From a virus, in IMG/VR virus record IMGVR_UViG_3300042924_002749, positions 1 to 42,480 of that record: DNA of 42,480 nucleotides, one strand, 5' to 3'. Under the pieces are notes generated by a model that was given only the letters and a program-made list of their open reading frames with translations, did no database searches and was not told the origin of the DNA. The translations under genes and the position numbers were made by a program. Shown here piece after piece: positions 22,083 to 23,045 of this stretch; positions within the stretch are counted from its first letter, which is position 1; every line of letters begins with the position of its first letter.

Positions 22083-22110
22083 GTGGCTCCGTAACTGGGG
22101 CCACTTTTTT
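22083..22110 (+). terminator. Rho-independent terminator after the VRR-NUC-like gene
   Basis: GTGGCTCC (22083-22090) pairs with GGGGCCAC (22097-22104), including one G-U, around a six-base loop, then six T. It lies 69 bases after the stop at 22014. The region 22015-22082 holds no recognisable gene. Confidence 0.85.
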
Positions 22111-22117
22111 CAGAGGC

Positions 22118-22155
22118 AACACGCATGGGGATTGAGCCAAGTTCCCATACGTGTT
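22118..22155 (+). other. Long hairpin overlapping RNA element A
   Basis: AACACGCATGGG (22118-22129) is complementary to CCCATACGTGTT (22144-22155) with one mismatch, around a 14-base loop. Its 3' arm shares three bases with the first strand of RNA element A, so the two structures could compete. No T tract follows, so it is not a terminator. Confidence 0.55.
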
Positions 22156-22232
22156 GGTGGTAAACGGGTTAGCGCCGTGCGTTGTTCCTTAGTTCGGTTT
22201 TAGCGCCAACACTGCTTCATGTGCCCACTAAC
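22153..22232 (+). ncRNA. Structured RNA element A, leader of the glutaredoxin gene
   Basis: P1 is GTTGGTGG (22153-22160) with CCACTAAC (22225-22232), including one G-U. P2 is ACGG (22164-22167) with CCGT (22175-22178) closing a GTTAGCG loop. P3 is GTT-c-GG (22192-22197) with CCAAC (22206-22210). It is followed at once by ACTGCTTCATGTG. The same order recurs in element B with different stem bases but the same P2 loop and 3' motif, which argues for conserved structure. The element ends nine bases before the glutaredoxin ribosome site, a position typical of a cis-regulatory leader. No known riboswitch class is recognised. Confidence 0.55.
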
Positions 22233-22249
22233 AATTTACAGGAGCTGTT

Positions 22250-22522
22250 ATGAAGATAACTGTCTATTCCAAATCAGCTTGCCCACAGTGCGATGCGGCC
22301 AAGAAACTACTGACTGCCAAGGGCATGGCATACGAAGAAGTTATGCTCGATGATGAAGCCGGCCGCACAGCTTTCTATGAGAAGTGCGGGCCATCGGTTC
22401 GCCAGATGCCACAGATATTTATTGACGACCAGCGCGTCGGTGGATTGGCTGGGCTGCACCAGGCGCTATGCCAGATCACCCAAAATTCTGCAGGGGTATT
22501 GACAGGCCCTGCAATTATTTGA
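22250..22522 (+). CDS. Glutaredoxin
   Basis: A 90-residue thioredoxin-fold protein with the active site CPQC (C11, C14), the cis-proline motif QMPQIFIDD (P54) and the GG turn (G64-G65) that binds glutathione in glutaredoxins. It reduces disulfides, often to supply ribonucleotide reductase. No ribonucleotide reductase is visible in this window, so the partner may be the host enzyme or the PP-loop enzyme. It is a single-gene unit: RNA element A precedes it and a terminator follows. GGAG lies five bases before the ATG. Confidence 0.9.
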   Translation: MKITVYSKSACPQCDAAKKLLTAKGMAYEEVMLDDEAGRTAFYEKCGPSVRQMPQIFIDDQRVGGLAGLHQALCQITQNSAGVLTGPAII

Positions 22523-22558
22523 TATAAACGAAGCGTTGTCGTCGTGGGCAATACTCTG

Positions 22559-22631
22559 AAGCCATTTACACATGCCTCGCCCCGTTAAGGGGTACCACGA
22601 CGGGGCAGTTGTAAGTGGCTTTTTTGTTTTT
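22559..22631 (+). terminator. Rho-independent terminator after glutaredoxin
   Basis: A 12-bp outer stem, AAGCCATTTACA (22559-22570) with TGTAAGTGGCTT (22610-22621), encloses an inner stem GCCCCG/CGGGGC (22579-22584 with 22601-22606). It is followed by a T-rich run to 22631. An upstream CGTCGTGG (22540-22547) is fully complementary to CCACGACG (22595-22602), giving a possible competing fold. Confidence 0.8.
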
Positions 22632-22727
22632 GAGACTGGGGTTGTGTTGCGGGTTAGCGCCGCAAGCTCCTTAAAGTGGACGAAAAGTTTTGAAAAAACA
22701 CTGCTACATGTGAGCAGTCCCAGTCTC
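22632..22727 (+). ncRNA. Structured RNA element B, homologous to element A
   Basis: P1 is a perfect nine-base pairing, GAGACTGGG (22632-22640) with CCCAGTCTC (22719-22727). P2 is TTGCGG/CCGCAA (22647-22652 with 22660-22665) with the same seven-base loop GTTAGCG as element A. P3 is GTTTT/AAAAC (22687-22691 with 22695-22699). Then comes ACTGCTACATGTG, one base different from element A. A further hairpin CTGCT/AGCAG fits inside. Like element A it follows an intrinsic terminator directly. A 91-residue reading frame across it (22572-22847) lacks a ribosome site and is probably not coding. Confidence 0.55.
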
Positions 22728-23015
22728 TCCTCCTACGGCAACCCTCAGAGCGGGTTAGCTAATAGGCCAATGTCGGGGCCGTACTCAAGAAACCGATGGC
22801 GCTTTAATAGACCCCCGGCGCCGCAGCGTTTCGTAGCGACTGCATAAAACGACCAAGCAAACCGACAATCAGCGTCTGGCCCACGACACGGGCGGTCGAT
22901 AGTTGAATACGACGTTCCGCGAGCAGCAGGTTTCGACTGGCTGGTGACTTCCACATATCTGTCCACAAGGGTACAGGTCGGGAGTCTCGGGGGTCTACTA
23001 TCGCTATACGTACTG
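22728..23015. other. Noncoding stretch between RNA element B and the early promoter
   Basis: No convincing gene is present; the short frames here lack ribosome sites and have arginine/proline-rich, atypical translations. A partial third copy of the element motif (GCGGGTTAGC) occurs at 22750-22759. Small hairpins are present, for example GCCC/GGGC at 22879-22893. It could hold an origin of replication or further structured RNA; nothing decides this. Confidence 0.4.
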
Positions 23016-23045
23016 CCTGTTATAAATAAACAGGAACAACCTGTT
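23016..23045. promoter_or_regulatory. Operator-like CCTGTT inverted repeats
   Basis: CCTGTT (23016-23021), AACAGG (23029-23034) and CCTGTT (23040-23045) form two overlapping dyads with 7- and 5-base spacers. The last copy overlaps the -35 box of the early promoter, so a bound protein would block or modulate it. The HTH proteins encoded downstream are candidate ligands. Confidence 0.5.

Follow-up and report, generated by a model that had tools for sequence, protein, structure and literature searches.

Two short segments of a viral genome, here called elements A and B, lie on either side of a glutaredoxin gene and repeat the same loop sequences, which raises the question of whether they are copies of a single structured RNA and what such an RNA might do. 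The window that we analysed is the whole stretch of 42,480 nt (IMG/VR record IMGVR_UViG_3300042924_002749). Elements A and B are homologous copies of one structured RNA family, and each conserved motif has exact matches only at these two sites within the 42-kb window (n = 2). The features of the locus are as follows.

22083-22110, plus strand: intrinsic terminator upstream of the A unit, read from the sequence as GTGGC...GCCAC followed by T6
22118-22155, plus strand: P0 hairpin, located 5′ of A, whose 3′ end overlaps the first P1 bases of A
22153-22232, plus strand: element A, from sequence and P1 pairing, with a model score of 61 bits
22153-22160 and 22225-22232, plus strand: P1 of A, GTTGGTGG with CCACTAAC
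22161-22167 and 22175-22181, plus strand: P2 of A, with the loop GTTAGCG at 22168-22174
22171-22174, plus strand: AGCG, the kissing side in the P2 loop of A, pairing with UGCU at 22213-22216
22182-22209, plus strand: variable arm of A
22210-22212 and 22221-22223, plus strand: P4 of A, within CACTGCTTCATGTG at 22210-22223
22250-22522, plus strand: glutaredoxin gene 3′ of A (Pfam PF00462, 1.8e-14), with the ribosome-binding site AGGAG at 22240-22244
22632-22727, plus strand: element B, from sequence and P1 pairing, with a model score of 77 bits
22632-22645 and 22714-22727, plus strand: P1 of B, GAGACTGGGGTTGT with GCAGTCCCAGTCTC
22646-22652 and 22660-22666, plus strand: P2 of B, with the loop GTTAGCG at 22653-22659
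22656-22659, plus strand: AGCG, the kissing side in the P2 loop of B, pairing with UGCU at 22702-22705
22667-22698, plus strand: variable arm of B
22699-22701 and 22710-22712, plus strand: P4 of B, within CACTGCTACATGTG at 22699-22712

In the sequence, standard pairs make up only the inner 4 bp of P2 in A and the inner 6 bp in B. The intrinsic terminators that the first-pass annotation had placed upstream of A (22083-22110) and directly before B were both found; B abuts the U-run of the terminator before it, with no promoter visible for B itself. The distance of nine bases given between A and the glutaredoxin ribosome site had to be corrected, as the 3′ strand of P1 (P1′) ends 7 nt before AGGAG (22240-22244). 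The P0 helix is equalled in at most 8 of 100 shuffles in 18 of the 22 A-type members tested, and by none in 16; its stems vary between A-type members through paired changes. The overlap between P0, with a loop of 4 to 76 nt, and P1 in A-type loci is a possible switch. Two neighbouring stretches were also observed. Between the glutaredoxin gene and B, positions 22499-22628 hold a promoter (TTGACA-18-TATAAA), approximately 100 nt of unannotated sequence and a long terminator hairpin, a layout that related loci share with different stems. On the 3′ side of B, approximately 300 nt without a clear gene (22730-23030) are conserved in close relatives; the first ~64 nt are similar in 28 loci, the remainder is hypervariable, and this stretch, which has no Rfam match, is possibly another structured RNA.

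To search beyond the window, we used a degenerate pattern built from the loops shared by A and B (GTTAGCGC-N22-50-ACTGCTNCATGTG). It matched at least 119 stretches among viral contigs, whereas control patterns that carried nearly the same information but had mismatched loops yielded 2 and 0 matches, and two further loop variants (G-C to A-U and G·U to G-C) yielded 0 matches each. Extrapolation from a complete scan of the sub-pattern in which the free position is A (26 stretches, compared with 17 of the 127 listed instances of the first pattern) gives a total of ~180 viral stretches. Among the matches listed, 103 instances were distinct, and their P1 arms were highly different in sequence. The elements are roughly 80-110 nt long and occur in one to three copies per phage. 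We regard it as almost certain that this family is a real structured RNA.

Comparison among members shows that the fold is a three-way junction formed by P1, by P2 with the loop GUURGCG and by a small invariant P4. Among 48 representatives, 11.15 of 12 positions of the P1 arms were paired, compared with 7.45 ± 0.20 (sd) when the partners were exchanged, and across the family P1 is paired in nearly any sequence. Because G-U pairs (73) far outnumber A-C combinations (12) in these representatives, the plus strand is read as the RNA, as had been proposed at the outset. Folding energy does not carry this call because the minus strand of B folds equally well; folded as single sequences, A had an unremarkable energy (z −1.1) and B a stronger one (z −3.1). 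In an alignment of 67 diverse members, which was fitted to a covariance model built without the P2-P4 pseudoknot and included host copies beyond the reach of the pattern, 93.9% of pair cells were paired, compared with 69.0% for shuffled sequences and 26-44% when the partners were slid; because these 67 rows were model-fitted, the exchanged-partner test is the cleaner of the two. Changes on both sides occurred in 19 of 26 pairs of the 67 members, including all 12 P1 pairs and five of the seven P2 pairs. The unconstrained minimum free energy fold of one member (L002) matched the consensus in P1, P2 and P4.

The homology of A and B claimed from the window holds, the covariation is real, and further homologs with compensatory changes in P1 and P2 were found. 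The architecture proposed there was right in P1 and in P2 with its GTTAGCG loop, but P2 has 7 bp in the family, and the supposed P3 hairpin (GTT...AAC) is absent as a feature: the stretch between P2 and P4 is a variable arm of 16-43 nt that forms a hairpin only in some members. The stretch with an A/T variant before the P1 closing strand is indeed conserved, but as part of P4, an invariant mini-hairpin CAC[UGCUNCAU]GUG of 3 bp with an 8-nt loop, to which both AACACTGC and the ACTGCTNCATGTG stretch belong.

A further family feature, missed in the first reading, is a kissing interaction in which comparison indicates that the P2 loop GUU(A/G)GCG pairs with UGC(U/C) in the P4 loop, giving a compact junction. 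In two host copies (L132 and L134), a change from A to G in the P2 loop is matched by a change from U to C in the P4 loop, and over the 67 rows this covarying pair is A-U in 62 and G-C in 5, with 0 mismatched. A pattern with the G-C combination found six viral stretches, of which L151/L154, L152, L153 and L156 proved to be true elements when checked with the model and in the sequence. The mismatched A·C combination gave two chance-like matches in viral contigs and no true member, and the G·U combination gave 0 matches there. The remaining three kissing pairs hardly vary and are supported by position alone.

The sequences around P1 suggest where the transcript begins and ends. A −10-like hexamer lies 3-9 nt 5′ of P1 in 24 of the 67 members, compared with 8.4 in shuffled sequences (maximum 17), a count that ignores kinship; the spacing peaks at 6-7 nt before P1, and type I members also have TTGACA. 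On the 3′ side, a U-run directly follows P1 in 5 of 67 members, and a separate terminator within 70 nt is found in 4 of 67, compared with 0.95 at random positions (kinship ignored in both counts). Three loci (L129, L135 and L137) have GGCCCGCC...GCGGGCC and then a T-run after P1′, and in others (L027 and L134/L146) the element lies 6-11 nt upstream of tRNAs or tRNA operons. The last two loci, L134 (931-1493) and L146, are Burkholderiaceae prophage-like, and a permuted tmRNA and tRNAs come right after the element. In the best-resolved members, P1 follows a −10 box by 6-7 nt, and the 3′ side runs into a terminator belonging to the element, into tRNAs or up to a ribosome site. For part of the family, these features support an RNA that would start at P1 and be freed as a separate molecule; a member's own promoter and terminator are likewise seen in some members and not for B.

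The genomic contexts differ between groups of loci. In type I, comprising about 30 loci, an SNF2-type helicase gene is followed by the element and then by a gene of 141 aa, and A- and B-type loci, including those of the window, are surrounded by recombination genes and tiny reading frames. In other members, what follows is a replication gene, tRNAs, tail genes or terminase genes, and some have no downstream gene on the same strand; nuclease-like genes and bacterial chromosome genes are further neighbours. A glutaredoxin gene follows only a handful of members and is not a conserved partner. With contexts this inconsistent, the redox- or glutaredoxin-sensing leader that had been suggested is not supported; the phage sRNA, another of the functions offered at that stage, is the option to which the sequences best point.

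Cultured bacterial carriers are Pseudorhodoferax (sp. Leaf265 and sp. Leaf274) and Variovorax (sp. ZS18.2.2), and few Burkholderiaceae bacteria carry the element overall. In model searches, it was present in 7 of 401 genomes of one bacterial family and 2 of 399 of the order; only the centre genome was positive among 399 of the phylum and likewise among 392 of the order of the Vreelandella genome. The pattern search of GTDB found six contigs, three of which hold one identical phage sequence (L122, L124 and L125) labelled as an Aeriscardovia MAG, Vreelandella and a Clostridia MAG, so some of the labels are doubtful. A weak additional model match of 22 bits, on the opposite strand in the L122-type phage, was judged to be due to chance. 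Some host copies lie within prophage-like sequence, and others neighbour chromosomal genes such as gyrA and icd (names read from the proteins). An integrase-like fragment lies near the element in L147, and some host copies may be prophage remnants; because such copies are also rare (7/401), their contexts need not reflect function. A blastn search of cultured phages with three elements, which easily misses short diverged RNAs, gave no convincing match, and the proteins encoded nearby share <60% identity with their closest cultured relatives. From the IMG/VR sample numbers and the Burkholderiales hosts, we read the carriers as freshwater phages.

No family of Rfam 15, including the ROOL and GOLLD models, matched the element at the gathering score in searches of the window and loci, and relaxed searches gave only chance-level matches. 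We found no description of this RNA family in the literature searched; the family appears new and fits the first-pass suggestion of an undescribed phage RNA outside the known classes, whereas its kind, a phage-borne structured RNA, is known. The Burkholderiales-1 motif, which the listing consulted gives without an Rfam accession and with uncertain RNA status (PMC2864571), is likewise from Burkholderiales, a comparison made by listing and not by sequence. ROOL and GOLLD, structured non-coding RNAs of unknown function, come from phages and prophages and often have tRNAs nearby (PMC12286853). They resemble the element in these respects but are much larger (GOLLD >800 nt) and form nanocages (PMC12286853), whereas the element has 80-110 nt and a different fold. 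The c4 antisense RNA (RF01695) is likewise a small structured phage RNA, but the element has neither a match to it in Rfam nor an antisense match in the window.

For the function, the reading that we prefer, at about an even chance, is a discrete small RNA or decoy that would act mainly in trans through its kissing-loop face; we rank it above a cis antiterminator, a riboswitch, a ribozyme or a 5′ stabiliser. Such an RNA would begin at P1 and either be released by a terminator (sometimes P1 plus U-run) or by tRNA processing or remain attached to an mRNA as its 5′ end; the kissing-loop face would be presented in trans to a conserved RNA-binding partner from the host or the phage, and the variable arm would be free to differ. 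At one locus (L148), the downstream gene, PfpI/DJ-1-like as read from sequence, is convergent, so there is no cis target. Against the trans reading, the fixed operon place of type I (about 30 loci) suits a cis role. As for antisense action on the phage's own genome, the variable arms were no more complementary to the remainder of the window than expected by chance. UCCU/CUCCU is enriched in this arm (UCCU in 30 of 67 members compared with 7.8 in shuffled sequences, kinship ignored), which may be an anti-Shine-Dalgarno seed, but UCCU is not clearly more unpaired (0.675) than other tetramers of the arm (0.628).

Processive antitermination in cis, in which the nascent RNA would stay on RNA polymerase so that later terminators are passed, is known from HK022 put, which consists of two stem-loops, binds the zinc-binding domain of the polymerase β′ subunit and suppresses termination (PMC9378689). 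The element is often at a transcript 5′ end, terminators surround A and B, and members lie with a terminator upstream of genes (L140/L141, RecT/exonuclease-like in L140) or ahead of terminase-like genes (L142/L144; all names read from proteins); put, too, is a small phage RNA of ~70 nt present twice per phage near early promoters (PMC9378689). We nevertheless consider this rather unlikely: put has no enclosing helix (PMC9378689), whereas P1 of the element encloses P2 and P4; copies directly before tRNAs or convergent genes have little to antiterminate; and B sits after, not before, the adjoining terminator. A self-cleaving ribozyme would fit the small size, the free P1 sequence, the conserved loop-loop contact and the phage origin, but is highly improbable given that there is no conserved junction core and no match to Rfam ribozyme families, and that stand-alone copies with a promoter and terminator would be unusual.

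The purine riboswitch is a three-way junction with a 7-bp P2, a 7-nt loop and kissing loops, and the geometry of the element is similar, analogous only, with one covarying kissing pair. A riboswitch or protein-binding leader, in which the kissing junction would sense a ligand and P1 (or P0 versus P1 in A-type loci) would control a ribosome site or U-run, would also suit the P0 strand that overlaps P1 in A, the position of type I elements and A just 5′ of ribosome sites and the P1′ strands that in some members enter U8. It is improbable because the downstream gene is inconsistent, several copies have none and Rfam holds no match; moreover, conservation sits in the loops and mostly not in the junction nucleotides. 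The element also departs from the purine riboswitch in its P4, which has 3 bp and a loop of 8 nt, in the long variable stretch that separates P2 from P4, and in lacking both a conserved ligand core and downstream purine genes. A 5′ stabiliser or processing element, whose stem flush with the mRNA end would block RNase E-type decay or mark a cleavage site, agrees with the prediction that P1 in type I coincides with the first base and with elements adjoining tRNAs and terminators, but is distinctly improbable, as a simple stem would suffice, leaving the invariant kissing loops and the stand-alone copies with terminators unexplained.

Within the favoured small RNA or decoy reading, we tentatively propose, at less than even confidence, that freshwater phages may supply one to three doses of this kissing-loop sRNA to capture or redirect a conserved machine of Burkholderiaceae hosts (polymerase, ribosome, RNase or defence protein), and that it would belong to a larger island of structured RNAs not yet described. 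Few small structured RNAs of phages are known and most of them lack an explanation; this family is common in uncultivated phages. Its fold is well defined, with testable base pairs, and the cultured carriers allow tests of expression, structure and partners.
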